Shown here piece by piece: positions 9,500 to 58,530 of a stretch of 64,000 bases of DNA. The notes below the pieces were generated by a model that was given only the letters and a program-made list of their open reading frames with translations, was not told the DNA's origin and did no database searches. The stretch spans positions 372,001 to 436,000 of the forward strand of contig NZ_AP026369.1 of assembly GCF_040436365.1 (NCBI RefSeq), in the 5' to 3' direction. The translations under genes were made by a program, and so were the position numbers. How positions within the stretch are numbered: position 1 is the first letter of the stretch; each line of letters starts with the position of its first letter. This DNA comes from Hydrogenimonas sp. SS33. GTDB taxonomy: Bacteria; Campylobacterota; Campylobacteria; Campylobacterales; Hydrogenimonadaceae.

Positions 9500-9553
9500 G
9501 GTAGTCCTTTGAAATGTTGCGTAATTTTACCTAAGCCTTATGGAATTGGCTCT

Positions 9554-9722
9554 CTATTCGCAAAAACTATTTACCCCGATATTGATAAAATAGATCTTCT
9601 CGTCAATGACAACGATGTCGATGACAACGCGATACTGCATATTGATGGATAAGCTGTAGAACTCCCGCAATCTTCTCTGACGTTTGCGAAGCCTGAGAGA
9701 AGGGTGTTTACCTAATCATCAT
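9554..9722 (-). pseudogene. remnant of a RelE-type toxin gene
   Basis: Reading leftward, a frame ending at the stop 9556-9554 gives HPSLRLRKRQRRLREFYSL, then SINMQYRVVIDIVV and IYFINIG. This is the C-terminal half of RelE/YafQ-like ribosome-dependent toxins, but a stop precedes it and the N-terminal half is absent. The original start is still visible: AAAGG, then ATGATG at 9722, which meets a stop after four codons, so an internal deletion with frameshift is likely. No antitoxin gene is seen. Such TA scars often border mobile regions. Confidence 0.6.
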
Positions 9723-9733
9723 GTGTCCTTTCA

Positions 9734-9767
9734 GTTATACATTTTAGTATACACCCGATCTATTATA
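9734..9767 (-). promoter_or_regulatory. promoter and likely autoregulatory operator of the decayed toxin gene
   Basis: On the minus strand TATAAT (9767-9762) stands upstream of an inverted repeat TATAC-N6-GTATA (about 9736-9751), followed by the ribosome site and ATG of the toxin remnant. The arrangement fits the self-repressed promoters of type II toxin-antitoxin loci. The -35 box is unclear. Confidence 0.4.
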
Positions 9768-9788
9768 AAAAGATTACGACAGTCAATA

Positions 9789-10017
9789 CATTTGTCATGC
9801 TATTGGGATATGGGCTGTTATCCGAACAAAAAGTACAGATAATGGCTCTGGAGCCAATAGCATGACATGGATGGTAAGGGTTTTTTGAGGGGAAACTCGC
9901 TAAGATTGGAAAAATATGTCATTTTGACATGTTTTGAAAAATAGCACGACATTTTTTGTGTGGTGCTATTTGGGGATATTGAGGGTGAATGGTATAAAGT
10001 GTTCATACAATAAATAG
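9789..10017 (+). repeat. integron-like leader, copy A (candidate attI region with cassette promoter)
   Basis: A 229-base stretch duplicated at 15919-16148. It begins with a perfect 13-base inverted repeat (9794-9806 against 9854-9866) enclosing a second stem that pairs fully as RNA with G-U pairs (GGGCTGTTATC with GATAATGGCTC). Then follow ATGTC-ATTTT-GACAT (near 9918-9932) and AAATAGCA...TGCTATTT. It ends TATAAA (9993-9998, likely -10) and AATAG|TT, where the G at 10017 is the crossover base. No integrase gene is near. It is called attI-like because cassettes start exactly here at both loci. Confidence 0.65.
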
Positions 10018-10359
10018 TTAGGGCGATCTAGAATAATGGATAAACGCGCAGAAGCCTTCATTAAAAAGCTCGATGAGCTGCTCGAAAGGATTGCACGATT
10101 AAAAGGAACATGGTGGTCGTCGAATATGGGTGGTGGCTTCAAGGATACGGTTTCTTTCGAAGCCATTTATACAGAAGCGATTTCTTTAATTTCCACTATT
10201 TACGGAAGATCTGATCCTCACTATCAGAGAATCATCCATTTTTACAATCAAGGCCATCTACACGCATTAGAGCAAACAGAAGGTCTCCTTAAAGGAACAA
10301 AAAGCAATTTGGAATCAGGTTTGATTGACGATTTGAAATCTAAAGTATTAATAGATATT

Positions 10360-11456
10360 TGTCCAGTTTCACCACGTTGTTGATGAAAGAGAAGTAGGGT
10401 TCCATACTGACTTCGAAGAAAGAAGTTGGTAGGCTGAGACATCTCGAATCAAGGCAAAAGAGAGATGAAACAGCACTACCATCGCAATGCGAGGACCAAC
10501 TCGCATGTACGCCAAAGTATACAGAAATCCGGAGCGAGCAATCAAGTGTTGGCTCGACGCTTCGGTGTCAGTGTCCAGACCGTCAGTAAGTGGCGTCATC
10601 GCCAGGAGACGGAAGATCGCAGTAGCCGGCCCCATACGATTCATTATGCATTGAGTGATTTGGAGCGGGAGCTTGTGCGCCTTGTGCGGACCAGTACCTG
10701 GATGCCGCTGGACGATCTGGTAGAGGCCCTGCAGAGTGTCATGCCCCATGCCAGCCGCTCCACGGTTTCTCGGACCCTGAGATCCTTGAAGATCAGCCAG
10801 GTTCCCCAGGAAGAACGTGCCAAAGCAAAAAAGTTCAAAGAGTATGTTCCGGGCTTCGTGCATATGGATGTGACCTATCTTCCCAAGATCGATGGCGTCA
10901 AATACTACCTCTTTGTAGCCATCGACCGGGCGACACGGTTGCTCTATTACAAAGTCTATCGAAGCAAAAGTGCCGCCAGCGCCCTCGATTTTCTCAAAGA
11001 GTGTGAACGCTTCTTTCCATTTACCATCACCCATATTCTGACCGATAACGGGATGGAGTTTACGGATCGCTTCAGCCAGGGACGTAAGGACCCCACCGGC
11101 AATCATCGTTTCGACAAGCTCTGCAGGGCATTCAACATCGAACATCGCCTCACGAAACCCTTTTGCCCGCAAACCAACGGGATGGTCGAACGGGCCAACG
11201 GGCTCATTAAGGAGCGAACCATCAAAATACAGAACTATGAGAATCTGCAGCAGATGATTGCCGATTTGGACAAGTTCCTGCTCTATTATCTCTTCAGCAG
11301 ACGCCATGGAGGTCTCAGAAAAGAACTGAAAGTCAAAACACCCTTTGAAGCACTACACTATTGGTATAATCTGGAACCTGAACTATTCAAAAAATCCCCT
11401 GAGATGTTCGAAGCCGACACATTGCTCTGGCTTGAACAACGTGGTGGAACTTGACA
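10360..11456 (+). mobile_element. IS481-family insertion sequence (1097 bp, complete)
   Basis: The ends are TGTCcAGTTtCACCACGTTG and the inverse of its right end; 20 of 22 terminal bases match, with TGT...ACA tips as in IS481. The flanks carry a 6-base direct repeat GATATT (10354-10359 and 11457-11462). One transposase gene fills the element. The intact ends, exact target duplication and complete ORF suggest a recent insertion. Confidence 0.9.
10465..11454 (+). CDS. IS481-family transposase
   Basis: 329 residues. An N-terminal helix-turn-helix (LARRFGVSVQTVSKWRHRQ, residues 29-47) binds the ends. The integrase-core catalytic residues are Asp135 (FVHMDVTYLP), Asp194 (ILTDNGMEFT) and Glu242 (TNGMVERANG), followed by the usual RRHGGLRKELKVKTPFEAL. 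The stop codon lies inside the right terminal repeat. Codon use and base composition are closer to the chromosome than to the A/T-rich cassettes around it. Confidence 0.93.
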   Translation: MKQHYHRNARTNSHVRQSIQKSGASNQVLARRFGVSVQTVSKWRHRQETEDRSSRPHTIHYALSDLERELVRLVRTSTWMPLDDLVEALQSVMPHASRSTVSRTLRSLKISQVPQEERAKAKKFKEYVPGFVHMDVTYLPKIDGVKYYLFVAIDRATRLLYYKVYRSKSAASALDFLKECERFFPFTITHILTDNGMEFTDRFSQGRKDPTGNHRFDKLCRAFNIEHRLTKPFCPQTNGMVERANGLIKERTIKIQNYENLQQMIADLDKFLLYYLFSRRHGGLRKELKVKTPFEALHYWYNLEPELFKKSPEMFEADTLLWLEQRGGT

Positions 11457-11791
11457 GATATTAAATCTGATTTTTTAGAAACTGCCAACAATCTACTTTC
11501 CGAGGGAGAGAAAGACCCTGCCGCTGTCCTGGCGTGCATAGTGCTTGAGGATTCCTTAAAGCGACTTGCTGCTAAATTCGATGTTAATGAAGCAAAAGAC
11601 AAAGAATTAAGCGTCTCTGCATGCGCTCTTTTTCGTGCTGGTGTTATCGAAAAATCGACAAACCAGTCAATACAAAACTTTAAGAATCTGCGAAATGCAT
11701 CATTACATGCGCAATGGGACCAAGTATCGGCTGAATCAGTTGGTCTATTGCTTACATTCTTGCCAATGTTTATTGAGAAGCATGGAATATA

Positions 11792-11864
11792 GCCCTAACA
11801 ATTCGCTCGTTCGGACGCAAACTACGCTGCGCTTCGTTTGCGCCGCACAGCTTGGTCGTTAGGC
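11792..11864 (+). other. attC site of cassette A1
   Basis: R'' box GCCCTAAC (11792-11799) and R' box GTTAGGC (11858-11864) bracket an imperfect palindrome in which GACGCAAAC faces GTTTGCG. The 5' arm AACAATTCGCTC closely follows the common gammaproteobacterial attC pattern. Crossover falls between G 11858 and T 11859. The R'' box overlaps the stop codon of the HEPN gene. Confidence 0.85.
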
Positions 11865-13422
11865 TGAAACTTCAAAAGGACCTTTTAATGGAAAAAAAAT
11901 ATTGGCAAGATGAAATTAAAGTAGATTATACAGATAGGACATTATTTGGGAATGATGCCGCTGAAGAAGAACAAGAAGAGGTTTTTCTATCTTATGCTTT
12001 AGAACCTGACATAACTACAGATTTTTTGGATCGTGAAAATAAGATACAAGTGGTACGTGCTTTTAAGGGTGAAGGTAAATCAGCGTTATTAAGACTAGCT
12101 AAAAATAAACTTGAAAAAGAAGAAAGAAACCTTGTCATTTCAAATACGGCTGTGTCACTTTCTCCTGTATTAGATTCAATTGACTCTGACGAGTGGACAA
12201 GGAAATGGAAAGAAAAATTATTAAATTTGATAGCAAATGAAATTGGTTCTCGTATTGGGCTTGCATTTTCTGACGATGCCATTAGTTTGGTCGAAGAAGC
12301 TGAAGAAAATGGATTTAAACAAAAGTCATTTGTTTCAACAATTGCAGATAGACTTAAAACAAAAAATATTCCTATTGAAAAAATAAGAAGTGGGGTTAAA
12401 AATCCTGAAGCCTTATTAAAAAGATGGCTAAAAGATGGTGCAGATACTTGGCTAATTATCGATGATATTGATCAAAATTTTCAAAATATCGAAAAAAATA
12501 GAATTAAAGTTGCTAGTTTTTTTACAGCCTGTAGACAAGTCGCAGCAGCAATTCCTGAAGTTCGTTTTCGTTTATCGGTTAGACCAAATGTTTGGAAAAT
12601 CATTAAACGAGAGTATGAAGCATTATCTCATGTTGAGCAATATATACAAGATTTAAAATGGTCACTTGATGATATTGAAGCATTAATTGTAAAACGTGTA
12701 GAAGGTTATTTAATCAGACACGACACTTGGGAAGATGCAAAAAAACTGCTTTCAAAAAAATCTAATAGACAACGTGAACAACTTCTTTCATTAGTTTTTG
12801 AAGAGCCCATGCCTTGGGGTAAACAAAGAACTCGTCCTGCAAAAATCATTCTTTATACTTTGTCTCGCCATCGGCCAAGATGGCTAATTGAACTTTAAAG
12901 ATAAAATATACTTCTCTGATATAGATAATATTTTAGAAGATTTTGGAAAACGTAGGATTGACGATACTATTGCAGAATTCAAATCTCAGTGTCCAGACAT
13001 AGAGGACTTATTGTCAGCCTTTGCCAACCAAGATGAAAGATATTCTACAGCCGATTTACTAACAACAATAACCAATCGAATTCTTCAGGGGACTAATCTA
13101 AAAATTGAAGGAGTTTTAGGCTCCCCTTCCAATAAAGAAGTTGCACATTTTTTGTATAGTATAGGGTTTTTGACAGCAAGACGAGATAATCCTGATGGTT
13201 CTTATGACCATATCTCTTTTGATATGGAACCAACTTTATTGAAATCGAGAACGAACATTGATCAAGGTGTGTCTTGGGAGATTCACCCCGTTTTCAGACA
13301 AGCTTTACGATTAAAGAACATTCAAACTAAACAACAAGCAAAGCATGCAAAAAAAAGAAAAGTCTAACAAATCGTCGCACACCAATAAATGCCTTGCGGG
13401 CATTTATTGGTAAACTCAAACG
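11859..13422 (+). mobile_element. integron gene cassette A2 (Sll1717-type ATPase)
   Basis: The cassette starts TTAGGC after the A1 crossover and ends at G 13422. Its start matches the complement of its own R'' box GTCTAAC (13362-13368) at 6 of 7 positions. The content is strongly A/T-rich relative to flanking chromosome, a sign of transfer. It holds one frameshifted gene. Confidence 0.7.
11888..13367 (+). pseudogene. P-loop ATPase of the Sll1717 type, frameshifted
   Basis: ATG 11888 follows AAAGGA at good spacing. The first frame (336 residues, to 12898) has LFGNDAAEEE near residue 19, a Walker A loop KGEGKSALLRL (Lys64) and Walker B LIIDDID (189-195). It stops just after RPRWLIEL. The second frame continues at once (NFKDKIYFSDIDNILEDFG, to 13367) with the region expected next in this family. 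Loss of two bases, or gain of one, near 12895-12900 explains the break; the joined protein is about 490 residues. Related ATPases are often found near anti-phage genes. A sequencing error or programmed frameshift cannot be excluded. Confidence 0.7.
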
Positions 13423-13428
13423 TTAACT
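13362..13428 (+). other. attC site of cassette A2
   Basis: R'' box GTCTAAC (13362-13368) and R' box GTTAACT (13422-13428). Between them lies a 13-bp perfect stem ACCAATAAATGCC/GGCATTTATTGGT around a 5-base loop. Crossover falls after G 13422. It has no T-run, so it is not read as a terminator. The R'' box overlaps the stop codon of the ATPase gene, as in A1. Confidence 0.7.
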
Positions 13429-13465
13429 TCTCAACCCAACAAAAACAACAAATAGCCACCATTCT
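13423..13465 (+). repeat. right flank of integron-like locus A
   Basis: After the last crossover, TTAACTTCTCAACCCAACAA and the next ~23 bases closely match the sequence after the attC of locus B (18128-18171). Left leader and right flank together would be the empty platform. From here to 13530 no gene is seen; an AGGAG at about 13520 serves the DUF2130 gene. Confidence 0.65.
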
Positions 13466-13530
13466 CCCCACTCCCCCACATTTCCGTTAAAATACTCCAA
13501 AACCCTCATTCACAGCATACAGGAGCCGCC

Positions 13531-14853
13531 ATGTCCACATCGACCACCATCCAGTGCCCCAACTGCGGCACACTCATCGATATCGACGCCATCTTCTACA
13601 AGCAGGTAGAAGCCAAGTTCAAAGAGCAGCAGATCGCCGAGCGGCGGAAGCTGCAGAAGGAGCTGGAGGAGAAGCGTCAGGAGTACAAGGCCCATCTCGA
13701 CGCACTGCGGGCCAGAGAGGCACAGTTCAAAGAGGAGAAAGAGCGCTTCGACGAGGAGCTGCGCCGGGCGACTAGGGAACAGCTGCGCAAAGAGCGGGCG
13801 AAGTTGACCGAGGAGCTCAAGGGCCAGCTGGCCAAAGAGCAGGCCGAAGCGATGGCCCTGATGCAAAAAGAGCTGGAGGAGAAATCGAAGCAGAACCAGG
13901 AGCTCTCCGCGGCCAAGATCGAGATCGAACGGCTCAAGCGCGAAAAAGAGGAGCTGGCCCTCAAGGCCAAGGCCGAAGCCGAAGCGGAGCTCAACAAGCG
14001 CCTCGCCGAAGAGAAGGCCAAGGTGCAAAAGGCCCTCGACGAGATGGCGGCGAAGAAGCTCAAGGAGATCGAAGAGGCCCAGGCCCTCAAGCTCAAAGAA
14101 AAAGACGAACAGCTCGAACAGCTCAAGCGCTCCCTCGAAGACGCCAAGCGCAAGGCGGAGCAGGGGAGCATGCAGGTGCAGGGAGAAGCGCTGGAGCTGG
14201 CCATCGAGGGGTGGCTGCGTAGTCAGTTTCCTTTCGATAACGTCGAGGAGGTCAAAAAGGGGGCCTTCGGTGCCGACTGCATTCAGACCGTGCATACCCG
14301 CGACGCCCAGAACTGCGGCGTGATCTGCTACGAATCCAAGAACACCAAAGCCTGGAGCTACGCCTGGATCGGCAAGCTCAAGCAGGATATGCTCAAGGCC
14401 GGGGCCGATATCGGGGTGCTGGTGAGCGCGGTCTATCCTCCGGGCATGGAGCGGATGGGATGGGTGGATGGCATCTGGGTCTGCTCCCTTGAAGAGTTCA
14501 AAGGCTCGGCGGCTTTGCTGCGCGAAAGCCTGATCCGCGTCCACCAAGCGATGCAGCGGGAGGAGAACAAGGCCGACAAGATGAGCCTGCTCTACAACTA
14601 CCTCACCGGCAACGAGTTTCAGATGCAGCTGCGGGCCATCGTCGATGGCTTCATGCAGATGCAGAGCGAGCTCGACAAAGAGAAACGCTCCCTCATGGCC
14701 GCCTGGAAACGCCGCCAGAAGCTCATCGACAGTGTCCTGGCCAACACCACAGAGATGTATGGAGCCCTCCAGGGCATCGCCGGGGGGAACGCCCTGCCGA
14801 CGATCGACGTGCTTGAGCTGCCGGAGGAGCCGGAAGATGAAGAGGCCGAATAA
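13531..14853 (+). CDS. DUF2130 domain protein with long coiled coil
   Basis: 440 residues. The N-terminus has one CPNC pair (QCPNCGTLIDID). Residues ~25-225 are charged heptads of a long coiled coil. From ~225 comes the DUF2130 domain (GEALELAIEGWLRSQFP, GADCIQTVHTR, CYESKNTKAWS, WIGKLKQDM), predicted as a restriction-endonuclease-like fold. Role unknown. ATG 13531 follows an AGGAG. Its composition is chromosomal, so it is not part of the cassettes although it adjoins locus A. Confidence 0.85.
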   Translation: MSTSTTIQCPNCGTLIDIDAIFYKQVEAKFKEQQIAERRKLQKELEEKRQEYKAHLDALRAREAQFKEEKERFDEELRRATREQLRKERAKLTEELKGQLAKEQAEAMALMQKELEEKSKQNQELSAAKIEIERLKREKEELALKAKAEAEAELNKRLAEEKAKVQKALDEMAAKKLKEIEEAQALKLKEKDEQLEQLKRSLEDAKRKAEQGSMQVQGEALELAIEGWLRSQFPFDNVEEVKKGAFGADCIQTVHTRDAQNCGVICYESKNTKAWSYAWIGKLKQDMLKAGADIGVLVSAVYPPGMERMGWVDGIWVCSLEEFKGSAALLRESLIRVHQAMQREENKADKMSLLYNYLTGNEFQMQLRAIVDGFMQMQSELDKEKRSLMAAWKRRQKLIDSVLANTTEMYGALQGIAGGNALPTIDVLELPEEPEDEEAE

Positions 14854-14873
14854 TTAATCCGGTCTGTCCCGCC

Positions 14874-15713
14874 TCATTCAGCGGTTGTGGTTTCCGGTTC
14901 GGGTGCTTTGGAAGCCTTGCCCTCCCTGATACGGTCGAAAAAGAGCACGCTGACGGTAATCGGCGCCATGGCGGTGACGATCTCGAGAAGGCCGCCGACG
15001 ATCCCTGCGGTTATCGCCGCCGCCTGAAGGTTGTGGAAGACGGCGACCGCTACCCCCGCGGCGGCGGCCGTGACGACCACGAGCATCAGGATGACGATGA
15101 TGATGGAGACGATGTACCCCAGATAGTGTTTGAAGTATCGCCAGGAAGCGGCGATGCTTAAAGCCTCCTGTGGGCGGTACAGGGGCCTGAGATAGATGGC
15201 GATGGTTCTCGAGAAACCGCCTTCGGCGACGGCCATGCCGTAGTAGTAGGGCACGGTATAGATGAGGTAGAGAAATGCCACGAGGAAGATGGCTGCCGCG
15301 ATGAAAGAGGGGAGTAAAGATACGACCCACACAATGGCAAAGAAGACAAAAGCGTAAACGAAGGTGCTGATGAGAATTCCCATGTAGATTCCAAAAAGCG
15401 AAGGAAACGTCTTGCCAAGCGGCATTCCGGCGAAGAGAGCCTTGGCCTTCTCCTTGTCCCATCCGCTCTCCAGAAAGGCGCGGGCGACCCCCAGCATGAC
15501 GGGAACGGCGAAGAAGCCGACGATAAAGATGCCGATGTTGCTCAGGGAGCCGGCGGGGTTCGTGTCCGCCCCGTTGATGACTGCGGCAAATCCCGCCATG
15601 TTGGCGACGTATAAGACGATCGCATAGGGGATGAAGATGGCGAAGAAGAGCCCCTTCCTCGACCAGAGCACGGCAACGGAGCCTAGCACGGCATTGTAGA
15701 CGTCACGATACAT
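14874..15713 (-). CDS. polytopic inner-membrane protein of unknown function
   Basis: 279 residues with about six hydrophobic segments (near 22-45, 62-80, 107-135, 138-160, 205-230 and 235-260) and a charged, Pro/Glu-rich tail. A middle loop holds SFPxxxY-like aromatic residues but no known motif. It resembles the broad class of uncharacterised permease-like proteins (YIP1/DUF975 shape) without a firm match. Single gene between DUF2130 (convergent) and locus B. Confidence 0.65.
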   Translation of the reverse strand: MYRDVYNAVLGSVAVLWSRKGLFFAIFIPYAIVLYVANMAGFAAVINGADTNPAGSLSNIGIFIVGFFAVPVMLGVARAFLESGWDKEKAKALFAGMPLGKTFPSLFGIYMGILISTFVYAFVFFAIVWVVSLLPSFIAAAIFLVAFLYLIYTVPYYYGMAVAEGGFSRTIAIYLRPLYRPQEALSIAASWRYFKHYLGYIVSIIIVILMLVVVTAAAAGVAVAVFHNLQAAAITAGIVGGLLEIVTAMAPITVSVLFFDRIREGKASKAPEPETTTAE

Positions 15714-15918
15714 TGGGTTCCTTTTTTGGGAAGATTATCTGGTGCTCACCCGGAAGGGTAGAAAGCGGTATGACAATTTAACACAAATCAAAATATTAGG
15801 CAACATTCAAATTTCAAGCCCTGACCCCATTGGCGCTACACTGAGCGTAGGGATGCATACTCCGAAATCCATTATTTTCACTCAGGCAAAGAGGATAGGG
15901 CAACCTCCGATATCAGCA
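15714..15918. other. intergenic region upstream of locus B
   Basis: No gene is supported. The sequence becomes A/T-rich leftward of the leader. A short imperfect hairpin (GCGCTAC...GTAG, near 15833-15851) is present. No toxin remnant like the one before locus A is seen, so the two loci lie in different surroundings. Confidence 0.4.
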
Positions 15919-16148
15919 CATTTTGTCATGCTATTGGGAGATGGGCTGTTATCCGAACAAAAAGTACAGATAATGGCTCTGGAGCCAATAGCATGACATA
16001 GAAAACAAGGATATTTTGAGGGAAAACTCGATAGGATTGAAAAAATATGTCATTTTGACATATTTTGGAAAATAGCAGGACATTTTGGATGTAATGCTAT
16101 TTAAAGATTTTAAGGGTAGTTGGTATAAAGTATTCATACATTAAATAG
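15919..16148 (+). repeat. integron-like leader, copy B (candidate attI region with cassette promoter)
   Basis: Second copy of the 9789-10017 leader. The 13-base inverted repeat is identical (15925-15937 and 15985-15997), as are the inner stem and its 15-base loop. The later hairpins differ in sequence but keep their pairing (AAATAGCA...TGCTATTT). The -10-like TATAAA is at 16124-16129, and the crossover G at 16148. Conservation is highest in the first 75 bases. The predicted transcript start (~16136) lies just before the retron RNA. Confidence 0.65.
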
Positions 16149-16305
16149 TTGTGCTAAAAATTATTAATTTTATGATAGAATACCGTGGAACCTTATTATT
16201 TAACTTTTCGTTGTTGCTTCTGCAACGAGTAGAAAAAGGATACAGGGTATTCTTCCTTTCAATAATGCTATAAAATAGCTTGTAAAAAGTAAGAGCTTAG
16301 CATAA
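16149..16305 (+). ncRNA. putative retron msr-msd RNA
   Basis: TTGTGCTAA (16149-16157, a1) can pair over nine bases with TTAGCATAA (16297-16305, a2), the terminal stem expected of a retron RNA. Inside, AGAATACC pairs with GGTATTCT over ~65 bases. Within that, TCGTTG pairs with CAACGA around a 9-base loop. A GCTAT-AAA-ATAGC hairpin lies before a2. It ends 30 bases before the RT start codon, the usual place. The branch guanosine cannot be fixed by eye. Confidence 0.55.
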
Positions 16306-16335
16306 GTTTAAGTGAAAGTAATAAGGTTTCTTCCT

Positions 16336-18075
16336 ATGAATGAGTTAGAAATATTTTATAATGAAAATAAAAAACTTTTTGAATGGTCTTTACATTTAAT
16401 TCGTCATGATAAATACCAACATAAACAAATTACAAAAAAGAGTGGAGACAAAAGAAACCTTAATATTCCACCAATCCAAGTAAAAATTACTCAAAAAAAA
16501 CTTTGTAGTCTTTTAAATTCTATATATATCCCTTCTAAATCTGTTCACGGTTTTATAAAATCCAACAATAATGATCATCGAACAATATATTCGAATGCAA
16601 AAGTGCACATAAAAAAAAGAGTTGTTATCAATATAGATATATCAAATTTCTTTGATAGTATCAATTTTGGAAGAGTTAGGGGGATGTTTTTAAAAAGTCC
16701 ATTTAATCTAAATAAGAAACTAGCAACAAAATTTGCTCAACTAACAACTTATAATAATTCATTACCACAAGGTGCACCAACTTCGCCAGTCATATCAAAT
16801 ATAATATGTCGAAAAATGGATCATGAACTTATAAGATTTGCTAGACAAAATAAATTAATTTACACTCGTTATGCAGACGATTTAACATTTTCGACAAATA
16901 AGGAAATTGATGAAACAACAATTATTAATTCTCTTGAAGATATTATTATATCAAACGGTTTTGCAATCAACTCTAATAAAACGCGTGTGCAATATTCAAA
17001 TCAATCACAAATAGTAACTGGTTTAAAAGTTAATCGAAAGGTAAATGTTTCAAGAAAATATATTAGAACAATTAGAAGCATGTTGTATAGTTGGCTTAAT
17101 AAAGGATTAGAAAATGCAGCTGAAGAGCATTTTACTTTGCATTGCAAACAACCCGAAAAATACAAAAAAAGCAAAGAAGAGAGTTTCAAAAATAGTTTAT
17201 TGGGAAAAATTAATTTTTTAAGCCAAATAAGAGGAAAAGATGATGCTATTTATTTAAAATATTTATATACTTATTATTTAATAGATAGTAATTTTATACT
17301 AAATAAAAAGCTAGACTTTTTTGAAAAATTTGAATTGTATAATATTACACAAGAAAGAGCTAACATTCTTTTTAACCATATATATGATTCTATATTAATT
17401 TTTACCGAGGGTATTACGGATATTATATATATAAAAGAAGCTTTAAAATTTTTTCAAAATAAAAGTCAATTTCTAAACTTAAAATTAAGGTTTGCTTATT
17501 TCGGTGGCTACGCTGATCTGATTAAAATTCACAGAGCATTATATGACGATTCCATTAAAAAGACAGGAAAATTACAAGATATAGATATTGCAAACATTAG
17601 GCACTGTTTATTACCATATGTTAGGAATGATAGTAAATTTTGTTTTGTATTAGATGCAGATGATCCCGGTATAATTAATTACTTTAAAAAACTTAAAACA
17701 TATAATCATTTTTTGATTGATATTGAAAATCAAGGATATATAGAAAAACTTGTAGAATTTGAAAAAATTAAAACTATTATAAAAAAATATGGATATAAAA
17801 TTGATATAAATAGAACAGGACTTAAAAAAGACACCAAAAAGAAACTTGAGGAATATTTACAAAAAAGTAAATATCAAAAGTACAAGAATATTTCTGCAGT
17901 TTCAAACTATATTGCCTATGGTCAAAAAATACTGGAGAAAACATTTCTTGCAAAACAAATTTCAAAAACTAATAATGTAGATTATAGTAAATTTGAAAAT
18001 TTATTTAAATTTTTAGAGAAATTGCAATTTAATTATATACACCCAAAAAAATTATGCTGTAATTCCATATATTAA
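16336..18075 (+). CDS. retron reverse transcriptase fused to a TOPRIM domain
   Basis: 579 residues from ATG 16336 (AAGG nine bases upstream); GTG 16312 in frame would add eight. RT landmarks are the retron-specific NAKVH (residues 87-91, the NAxxH motif of region X), NIDISNFFDSI, QGAPTSPVISN (145-155), catalytic YADD (179-182) and VTGLKVN (227-233, the VTG motif of region Y). The C-terminal half has TEGITD (357-362) and FVLDADDPG (~438-446), the Glu and Asp-x-Asp of a TOPRIM nuclease fold as in OLD proteins. RT-TOPRIM fusions are known as a retron subtype in which the fused domain is the effector. Strongly A/T-rich, hence acquired. Likely anti-phage. Confidence 0.87.
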   Translation: MNELEIFYNENKKLFEWSLHLIRHDKYQHKQITKKSGDKRNLNIPPIQVKITQKKLCSLLNSIYIPSKSVHGFIKSNNNDHRTIYSNAKVHIKKRVVINIDISNFFDSINFGRVRGMFLKSPFNLNKKLATKFAQLTTYNNSLPQGAPTSPVISNIICRKMDHELIRFARQNKLIYTRYADDLTFSTNKEIDETTIINSLEDIIISNGFAINSNKTRVQYSNQSQIVTGLKVNRKVNVSRKYIRTIRSMLYSWLNKGLENAAEEHFTLHCKQPEKYKKSKEESFKNSLLGKINFLSQIRGKDDAIYLKYLYTYYLIDSNFILNKKLDFFEKFELYNITQERANILFNHIYDSILIFTEGITDIIYIKEALKFFQNKSQFLNLKLRFAYFGGYADLIKIHRALYDDSIKKTGKLQDIDIANIRHCLLPYVRNDSKFCFVLDADDPGIINYFKKLKTYNHFLIDIENQGYIEKLVEFEKIKTIIKKYGYKIDINRTGLKKDTKKKLEEYLQKSKYQKYKNISAVSNYIAYGQKILEKTFLAKQISKTNNVDYSKFENLFKFLEKLQFNYIHPKKLCCNSIY

Positions 18076-18077
18076 TA

Positions 18078-18133
18078 GCACAACAAAACCTTGCACCGAA
18101 CAGTAATCCTGTCGGTGAAGTCAGTCGTTAAAC
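18078..18133 (+). other. attC site of cassette B
   Basis: R'' GCACAAC (18078-18084) and R' GTTAAAC (18127-18133, fits GTTRRRY). The 56-base site folds with CACCGAACAG against CTGTCGGTG, leaving one unpaired A. Such an extrahelical base is what integron integrases use to pick the strand. Crossover is after G 18127. It is the shortest of the three sites. Confidence 0.75.
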
Positions 18134-18171
18134 ATCTTAACCCCACAAAAACAACAAAAAGCCACCATCTT
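18128..18171 (+). repeat. right flank of integron-like locus B
   Basis: TTAAACATCTTAACCCCACA and the next ~24 bases match 13423-13465 with few differences, and similarity fades after GCCACCATCTT. Together with the leader it defines the duplicated platform. No gene lies between here and the zinc-ribbon gene that ends at 18219. Confidence 0.65.
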
Positions 18172-18218
18172 TGGGACCGTCAGAAATTTTGTGGGGAAAG
18201 GCTCAGGCGATAAAATCA

Positions 18219-19307
18219 CTACCCCTGCAACTGCTGTAGCCAGGCTGCCACCTTGGGCCAGTTGAAAGCCAGAATCATCAAAACGATCGCCAGACCTATC
18301 AGGGCGATTTTCCAGTAGCTGACGGGCCAGTCGCCGGCGATTTCGCCGCTGGTGCCGTCGATGACGAAGCGGTACTCTTTGCCTTTGTATCGAAAGGCGT
18401 TGCTCCAGATGGGGCGGAGGGTGTATTCGCAGCTTTCACCCGAATAGTGGGTTTGGATGGCGTAGATGCGTTGTTCGTCGCCGCCGATGGCTCTTCGGAC
18501 GTCTTGGCGGATGCGGTTTTGCATTGTCTCTTTTGCCTCCTTGTAGGAGGCGAGGGGGGTGCGGCTGTATTCGTAGGCGTTAAAGCCGCAACAGTAGCGT
18601 TCGTCTGCCGTGCAGCGTTTGGCGCTCTCTGGAAAGGGGAGCTTTTCGAGCAGGTCAGGGGGAAGGTTTTCGGCGGCGGGGACGGGGAGGTCGCGGAAAT
18701 CTCTGGCGACCCGGCCAGAAACCGGTGTCCAGCGGATGCGGCGCTCCTGCTCCTGGACGACCTGCTCCCGGCCGTTGACGATGCGCCTTCTTGGCACCGT
18801 TACATAGTAGGCATCCCCGCGCTCTCCTTTGTAGAGGCTGACGGTATCGGCGTCGAAGAGCCACCATGGGAGCCAGTAGCCCTTCATTTCGCTTTGGGTG
18901 TCCACCAGGTGTTTCAGGGCGCGGGGTGCGAGCCACAGTGAGCCGATCCAGTCGGCGAAGATCTTCTGCGCCTCTTTTTGCGATATTTGAAACGGTAGCA
19001 GGCTTTCGGGGCGGTAGGGGGCTTTGGGGTCGATGAGCGCCGGGGTGTCACAGTAGGGGCAGAGTGTGGCGAAAGCGCCTTGGGGTATCTCGTAGCCGGC
19101 GCCGCATTTGGGGCAGTGGATGGGTGTGGGAGCCGCGGTGACGGCCGTGTCCCGGTATGCGCTCAGGGGAAGTTTGGGGCCGGTGCTTTGGCAGGGCACC
19201 TCTTCATTGCGTTCACAGTAGTCGCAGTGCAACCCTCCGTCTTTTGGCGAGAAGTGCATTTCGGCACCGCATCCGGGGCAGGGGTAGTGGCGTACCTCCG
19301 TACCCAT
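18219..19307 (-). CDS. zinc-ribbon membrane-anchored protein
   Basis: 362 residues. Two zinc ribbons open the protein (CPGCGAEM...CDYCE at ~10-33 and CPKCGAGY...CPYCD at ~64-86). A long soluble middle follows, then one hydrophobic segment near 335-355 that would anchor it in the membrane. The middle resembles the DNA-helicase-PriA-like zinc-finger/TM proteins found with SPFH and TelA proteins; function unproven. It starts one base after the SPFH gene and is the last gene of the operon. Confidence 0.75.
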   Translation of the reverse strand: MGTEVRHYPCPGCGAEMHFSPKDGGLHCDYCERNEEVPCQSTGPKLPLSAYRDTAVTAAPTPIHCPKCGAGYEIPQGAFATLCPYCDTPALIDPKAPYRPESLLPFQISQKEAQKIFADWIGSLWLAPRALKHLVDTQSEMKGYWLPWWLFDADTVSLYKGERGDAYYVTVPRRRIVNGREQVVQEQERRIRWTPVSGRVARDFRDLPVPAAENLPPDLLEKLPFPESAKRCTADERYCCGFNAYEYSRTPLASYKEAKETMQNRIRQDVRRAIGGDEQRIYAIQTHYSGESCEYTLRPIWSNAFRYKGKEYRFVIDGTSGEIAGDWPVSYWKIALIGLAIVLMILAFNWPKVAAWLQQLQG

Positions 19308-22533: not shown

Positions 22534-23751
<1,218 letters not shown>

Positions 23752-43304: not shown

Positions 43305-43320
43305 TCGTCAGGCGAAAAAC

Positions 43321-43709
43321 GAGATTGGGGCCGCAAAATCTGTACGCAGGGGTGCGATTTGCCCTTCGGGACGCGGACTCTTGCCTAAAACCGCTAATGC
43401 CTTCGGCACCCTGCAGGTATGCGCGGTTTTCTAGACGGAGTGATACCAATCCCCATCCAAAGAAAAACATCGGGTTCGTGCGTTTGGCACGCGGGGGTGC
43501 GATTTGCCCTACGGGACGCGGCCTTTTGCCTAAAAACCGCGAATGCCTTCGGCACCCTACGGGCACGCGCGGTTTTCTTGACGGCAAGAGGCCGCTCAAA
43601 TCGCAACGCTACCCAAACACACGCCCCCGATGTCATGTTTGGGATTGGTTGAGGATTGGTATGAGGCCGCTCAAATTGCAATGCTAGCAGATTCTGCAGC
43701 CCCAATCTC
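43321..43709. repeat. palindromic repeat family D, outer copy, interrupted
   Basis: Ends GAGATTGGGGCCGCAAAATC and its inverse at 43688-43709. The left part carries GGTGCGATTTGCCC, GGGACGCGG, TTGCCTAAAACCGC, TGCCTTCGGCACCC and GCGCGGTTTTCTAGACGG. The right part resumes at GAGGCCGCTCAAATTGCAAT. The element is split by a second copy (43443-43662). No gene lies in this 430-base gap. Confidence 0.75.
43443..43662. repeat. palindromic repeat family D, inner copy inserted in the outer copy
   Basis: Perfect 10-base ends ATACCAATCC (43443-43452) and GGATTGGTAT (43653-43662). The interior repeats the order of the outer copy: GTGCGATTTGCCC, GGGACGCGGCC, CCTAAAAACCGC, CCTTCGGCACCC, GCGCGGTTTTCTTGACGG, GAGGCCGCTCAAATCGCAA. 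A third copy, inverted, lies at 58333-58530. Confidence 0.8.
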
Positions 43710-58332: not shown

Positions 58333-58530
58333 ATACCAAACCCTAACAAGACATTGGGTTCGTGTGTTTGGATAGCGTTGCGATTTGAGCGGCCTCTTGC
58401 CGTCAAGAAAACCGCGCGTGCCCGTAGGGTGCCGCAGGCATTAGCGGTTTTTAGGCAAGAGGCCGCGTCCCGAAGGGCAAATCGCACTCCCGCGTGCCAA
58501 ACGCACGAACCCAATGTTGTCTTTTGATAT
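58333..58530. repeat. palindromic repeat family D, third copy (inverted)
   Basis: ATACCAAACC at the left end and GATAT at the right. The interior runs the reverse of 43443-43662: GTTGCGATTTGAGCGGCCTC, TTGCCGTCAAGAAAACCGCG, GGGTGCCGCAGGCATTAGCG, TTTTTAGGCAAGAGGCCGCG, GGGCAAATCGCAC. Fills the gap between convergent genes. Confidence 0.8.

Follow-up and report, generated by a model that had tools for sequence, protein, structure and literature searches.

A duplicated leader in Hydrogenimonas sp. SS33 is the attI site and putative cassette promoter of two integrase-less arrays

Among described integron recombination sites, attI1 of class 1 integrons measures about 65 bp and contains two direct repeats (PMC4792948), and extra integrase-binding repeats, DR1 and DR2, lie upstream of its core (PMC8946536). 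An attI is recognized as double-stranded DNA (PMC8946536, PMC4792948), and it has been stated to be unclear how an integrase distinguishes its own attI from others (PMC4792948). Loss of intI with survival of the cassette arrays is known, for example, in Xanthomonas (PMC12444791). Outside class 1, attI sites go undetected by IntegronFinder 2.0 because they are poorly described (PMC9024848). We found no description of a Campylobacterota attI in the open-access library searched; one may exist elsewhere.

Here we analyzed a window of 64,000 nucleotides, the whole stretch of Hydrogenimonas sp. SS33 DNA under study (contig NZ_AP026369.1, positions 372,001 to 436,000). It contains two copies, A and B, of a leader of 229 nt that are 87% identical without gaps, in agreement with the duplicated leader with nested inverted repeats described in a first-pass annotation. 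We consider it highly probable, as a complete explanation, that Hydrogenimonas (Campylobacterota) has a chromosomal integron whose attI site and cassette promoter (Pc) make up this leader, that A and B are relics whose integrase gene was deleted, and that the repeated half-sites in the leader are most likely read by the integrase, IntI.

Identity of the leader

The principal features of the two copies are as follows.

9791 to 10019, plus strand: copy A, attI and Pc leader without integrase gene; 87% identical to copy B and 69% to the intI-linked copy at L009:5630-5862
15922 to 16150, plus strand: copy B, attI and Pc leader without integrase gene, by homology to A
9914 to 9932, no strand assigned: central palindrome ATATGTCATTTTGACATGT, at a position recognizable in most attI of the order
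9993 to 9998, plus strand: Pc -10 hexamer TATAAA of copy A (16124 to 16129 in copy B), conserved in position in intI-linked attI
10017 to 10024, plus strand: crossover G|TT and R bases GTTAGGGC of copy A, reverse complement of GCCCTAAC at 11792 to 11799
16148 to 16155, plus strand: crossover G|TT and R bases GTTGTGCT of copy B, reverse complement of AGCACAAC at 18077 to 18084

A genome-wide search for the leader, which had been proposed as a check, recovered a third copy in the same genome (L009:5630-5862, 69% identical). It lies just upstream of a divergent intI (TIGR02249, 418.8 bits), with about 25 bp between its end and the gene start. This intI is the only one in the genome and is broken by one internal stop (TAA at codon 71 of 322); a full-length intI is absent from the genome sequence. 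In the third copy and in 33 intI-linked loci, the site is flanked by a divergent intI on one side and the first cassette on the other, and a -10 is conserved before AATAAATAG|TT in these 33 loci, which were picked by the AATAAATAG|TT core itself.

At A, at B, at the intI copy and at two further loci (L011 and L012), the R bases that follow G|TT match, in 8/8 positions, the reverse complement of the attC end of the site's own cassette. The first bases after AAATA are GTTAGGGC in A, GTTGTGCT in B and GTTAGCTC in the intI copy, the exact reverse complements of GCCCTAAC, AGCACAAC and GAGCTAAC, respectively, with which the attC after the first cassette gene begins. Such complementarity is what an attI x attC insertion leaves, and the sequences thus identify the leader as attI and G|TT as its crossover. 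The crossover falls between 10017 and 10018 in A and between 16148 and 16149 in B, and the block of homology stops exactly there. Across relatives, 19 of 57 sites had a perfect 8/8 match between R bases and attC, compared with 2.0 after permutation. Together with the copy beside intI and the conserved -10, this complementarity supports the earlier inference of an attI plus cassette promoter. TATAAA lies about 20 nt 5' of the crossover at both loci, as had been noted from the letters alone. A promoter scan of Pc found no consensus -35; only the -10 is conserved, in position. The leader is not itself an attC, given that its hairpin arms TGTCATGC...GCATGACA lack AAC/GTT ends.

The outer inverted-repeat arms TGTCATGCTATTGG/CCAATAGCATGACA are perfect in both A and B over 14 bp, one base more than first reported. 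A recurrent sequence and its inverse had also been reported, and all four occurrences of TGCTATTGG in the window (0.31 expected) lie within leader hairpin arms. In the later hairpin AAATAGCA...TGCTATTT, the arms are retained between A and B and the interior has changed, again as described. Elsewhere in the window, long inverted and direct repeats are located at 43315-43649 and 58335-58526.

The first-pass annotation had emphasized that the first 75 bases are almost unchanged between copies. The count agrees, with 1 difference in the first 77 nt and 29 in the remaining 152 (p = 4e-5). Spacers and loops in these 77 nt are identical as well, and the block has no special conservation between species; the near-identity is therefore more likely to mark a recently homogenized tract than conserved pairing. 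Purifying selection on the first hairpin was rejected on the same grounds. In other copies of the genus, the outer arms pair imperfectly, with mismatches mainly at box positions 4-5.

Half-sites that change in concert

Homologous attI adjoining intI across Campylobacterota contain about seven half-sites of the form TGT-N5-TA, mostly in inverted pairs. Their common plan consists of b1, the inverted pair b2/b3, b4, the central palindrome, the inverted pair b5/b6, the -10, b7 and AATAAATAG|TT, so that b7 sits between the Pc -10 and the crossover. The boxes of copy A are listed here.

9793 to 9802, plus strand: box b1 (TGTCATGCTA)
9819 to 9828, minus strand: box b2 (TGTTCGGATA)
9832 to 9841, plus strand: box b3 (AGTACAGATA)
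9858 to 9867, minus strand: box b4 (TGTCATGCTA)
9942 to 9951, minus strand: box b5 (TGTCGTGCTA)
9959 to 9968, plus strand: box b6 (TGTGGTGCTA)
10000 to 10009, plus strand: box b7 (TGTTCATACA), between -10 and crossover

N5 varies among integrons (for example, GTGTT, CCTTT or CATGC) and is concordant inside one attI. Based on 36 attI, taken from an alignment of intI-linked loci of the order together with copies from the genus, 21 of 21 box pairs were above permutation (z 3.2-7.8, mean z 4.7), including direct-oriented pairs. This concert persisted after thinning to 20 diverse attI, and random words from the same attI gave a mean z of 0.08 and a maximum of 0.55. The outer pair b1-b4 scored highest (z 7.8). 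Non-hairpin pairs b1-b5 (z 6.8), b2-b7 (5.7) and b2-b6 (5.6) exceeded the hairpin pairs b2-b3 (4.4) and b5-b6 (5.0). Box 7 has better partners inside its own attI than in other attI; in Hydrogenimonas, b7 is a poor match to b1-b6 unless it is shifted by one base.

The alignment of copies from relatives, suggested earlier as a search for covariation, thus revealed that all boxes covary, whether or not they pair in a hairpin. Because direct-oriented boxes covary and non-hairpin pairs exceed two of the three hairpin pairs, we conclude that a repeated recognition site is maintained and not a fold. Among the roles initially offered for the hairpins, that of protein sites is favored, and the hairpins most likely reflect a repeated site of IntI itself, judging by this concert of the boxes. 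That the integron's own IntI reads the boxes appears to us fairly probable. The half-site would then serve the integrase as an accessory site in double-stranded form, in the manner of DR1/DR2 in attI1 of class 1. The half-sites, mostly inverted pairs, lie around the divergent promoters of intI and of the cassettes, and the nested hairpins follow from this arrangement. IntI at b7 may block Pc.

Divergence of the boxes correlates with divergence of IntI (Mantel r 0.37, p 0.0002), a signal that is weak when attI spacers are controlled for (partial Mantel r 0.17, p 0.018). As a tentative proposal, which we would not yet call probable, N5 could constitute a specificity code by which each Campylobacterota IntI recognizes its own attI. 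The attI would be a multi-site protein assembly platform over both promoters, the code would drift jointly in all boxes and the integrase, and integrase-less attI would survive in many genomes as cassette promoters.

It is also conceivable, if unlikely, that a transcription factor other than IntI uses the boxes as operators to repress intI and the cassette promoter, and that the hairpins are palindromic operators. The inverted box pairs around two promoters, and the location of b7 just past the Pc -10 and of b4 close to the expected intI transcription start, would suit such operators, and a regulator travelling with each integron would generate the same pattern. However, N5 changes integron by integron, and two box types are present in one genome, G015 (L012 and L033), which speaks against one host regulator. 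In the loci read, intI is the sole conserved neighbor gene, and no regulator gene adjoins attI. Two attI types, the TGTCATGCTA-type and the TGTCC-type, were observed in each of two genomes, G002 and G015.

Cassette arrays after the loss of intI

Downstream of the two leaders, the following features were annotated.

10036 to 11792, plus strand: first cassette gene of array A, function unassigned, interrupted by an IS that lies between about 10355 and 11461
10465 to 11454: transposase in the IS, rve domain
11792 to 11866, plus strand: attC of the first cassette of A; the bottom strand folds (z -2.4)
11888 to 13367, plus strand: second cassette of A, with weak similarity to ATPases (AAA_22, below cut-off)
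13362 to 13426, plus strand: attC of the second cassette of A (z -4.7)
13425 to 13462, plus strand: tail that follows the final attC of A and recurs behind B at 18131 to 18168 (89%)
16187 to 16330, plus strand: candidate retron ncRNA, suggested by its fold with long complementary ends, directly behind Pc of B
16336 to 18075, plus strand: reverse transcriptase of a type I-C retron, fused to a Toprim domain, in the cassette of B (PADLOC RT-Toprim_I-C, 614 bits)
18077 to 18133, plus strand: attC of the retron cassette (z -2.7)

The IS at 10355-11461 in the first cassette gene of A has GATATT on both sides. Two overlapping frames around 12880-12900 in the second cassette gene of A are probably the result of a frameshift. 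Copy B has the type I-C retron (window positions 16187-18075) as its sole cassette.

With two attC and no intI, array A corresponds to a CALIN, that is, attC without nearby intI; the IntegronFinder rule for a CALIN is at least two attC, and B, with one attC, would fall short alone. Neither array is a complete integron with an intact integrase gene, since there is none at A or B and the only intI carries the stop described above. In terms of sequence, A is shown to be a relic by the intI fragments of its Hydrogenimonas relatives. In G015, attI is positioned at A's locus beside nspC, with an intI fragment between them (110 bp at 90%). The same arrangement is found in G017, with two fragments (87 bp, 86%; 69 bp, 83%), and in G012 a 180-bp intI remnant (72%) lies beside attI at a different locus. 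Copy A itself has no intI remnant. Copy B is likewise identified as a relic, by the absence of intI and by a 31-bp homology to the start-codon side of intI in the intI locus, which reaches into and beyond its left end. Other Hydrogenimonas have nothing at A's locus: nspC is immediately followed there by the gene found at 22534 in the window, so the integron is an insertion. The 38-bp tail shared by both arrays implies that the whole array may have been duplicated.

All 30 of 30 intI-linked attI have the -10 of intI (TAnnnT) at a single alignment position; A and B have lost it. Such promoter loss was rejected as a feature typical of solitary attI in general: it applies to A and B but to only 3 of 22 solitary copies. 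The platforms of A and B had their integrase gene deleted, with the crossover, the Pc -10 and the first cassettes retained, and Pc probably still drives the first cassettes, a retron in the case of B.

Instead of being passive relics, A and B could be docking sites, several per genome, on which an IntI or Xer recombinase acts in trans. Up to seven attI-core sites in one genome (G102), many with their own cassette, and the retention of boxes and crossover in A and B are in line with this possibility. We regard it as distinctly unlikely given that the genome's only intI is interrupted, that no intI passes the cut-off in ten closed genomes that contain such sites, and that the intI -10 is lost in A and B.

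Integrase-less attI with cassettes are common in Campylobacterota, based on searches of 150 relatives. The core pattern with up to two mismatches occurs at 71 sites in 35 of these relatives, some of the 71 being intI-linked, and the reversed pattern occurs at one site. Among the 58 sites that were read, the upstream leader is present in 27 (E value below 0.001) and in none of the controls. In 20 genomes with core sites, 10 of them closed and single-contig, there was no intI above cut-off and only Xer-like matches and a few fragments. In G017, a second, truncated attI (L035:7570-7628, from b6 to the crossover) with its own cassette and an 8/8 attC match is located 2.5 kb after the first and is possibly the counterpart of copy B. 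Three viral contigs (L248, L249 and L250) match the attI core pattern exactly. A search of a plasmid collection with the leader gave no match.

Hairpins, transposon ends and known systems

A role of the hairpins as RNA structure or as a fold for single-strand recombination had also been envisaged. The leader could be a structured RNA, either a leader RNA or an sRNA, with stems kept by compensatory change, and its folding is indeed well beyond that of shuffles on both strands (z -8.0 on plus, -7.6 on minus). The inner stem GGGCUGUUAUC/GAUAAUGGCUC includes 3 G-U pairs in 11 on the plus strand, as had been pointed out. Yet the stems are upstream of the inferred Pc start, their arms are mismatched in most copies of the genus, and same-direction boxes that cannot pair, along with non-hairpin pairs, covary as well. 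Pair-specific compensatory change and a family match were both missing from the leader: an Rfam search of the window gave no match at gathering score, and a permissive RNA-family search of 9500-18300 gave only sub-threshold matches, the best of those at the leader being STnc310 (E 1.4). We thus consider a structured RNA very improbable. The single-strand fold is without support here, attI being known to be recognized in the double-stranded form.

The terminal inverted repeats of two copies that are nearly identical and lie 6 kb from each other, and the tail common to the downstream side of both arrays, would resemble a MITE or another transposon end sitting by chance before genes, a reading that we dismiss as extremely improbable because the block ends at the crossover, a homologous copy is located beside intI, intI fragments flank attI in relatives, cassettes with matching attC follow the copies, and we noticed no target duplication on either side of the leader. 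Cassette-free copies with target-site duplications, named in advance as the mark of a plain MITE, were not found; the copies carry cassettes.

The attI and Pc with half-sites presumably read by IntI remain our preferred explanation of the leader. Recurrent Campylobacterota attI with a simple pattern and variable letters that change in concert provide a natural data set for a recognition code, and the concerted boxes permit a direct swap experiment on attI recognition. In genomes without any integron call, it also becomes possible to find attI that lack an integrase, together with cassettes such as the retron described here.

By comparison to known systems, the Hydrogenimonas leader is similar to attI1 of class 1 integrons in being a primary site beside intI with a G|TT crossover and, putatively, a cassette promoter nearby, and the two direct repeats of attI1 also start with TGT according to the attI1 letters. 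In contrast to attI1, the leader extends over about 230 bp and across both promoters, and most of its roughly seven half-sites form inverted pairs. It shares with attIA of Vibrio cholerae that it is the attI of a chromosomal integron, whereas attIA has been described without such repeated sites (PMC8946536). Like CALIN and inactivated integrons, A and B are cassette arrays remaining after intI loss or deletion (PMC12444791), but they keep a recognizable attI and putative Pc, with several per genome. Delta-attI-type cassettes of mobile integrons (PMC12901181) similarly place extra pieces of attI inside arrays, comparable to the truncated site of G017 (L035:7570-7628). By contrast, A and B are near full-length and head their own arrays, and are not situated at cassette ends.
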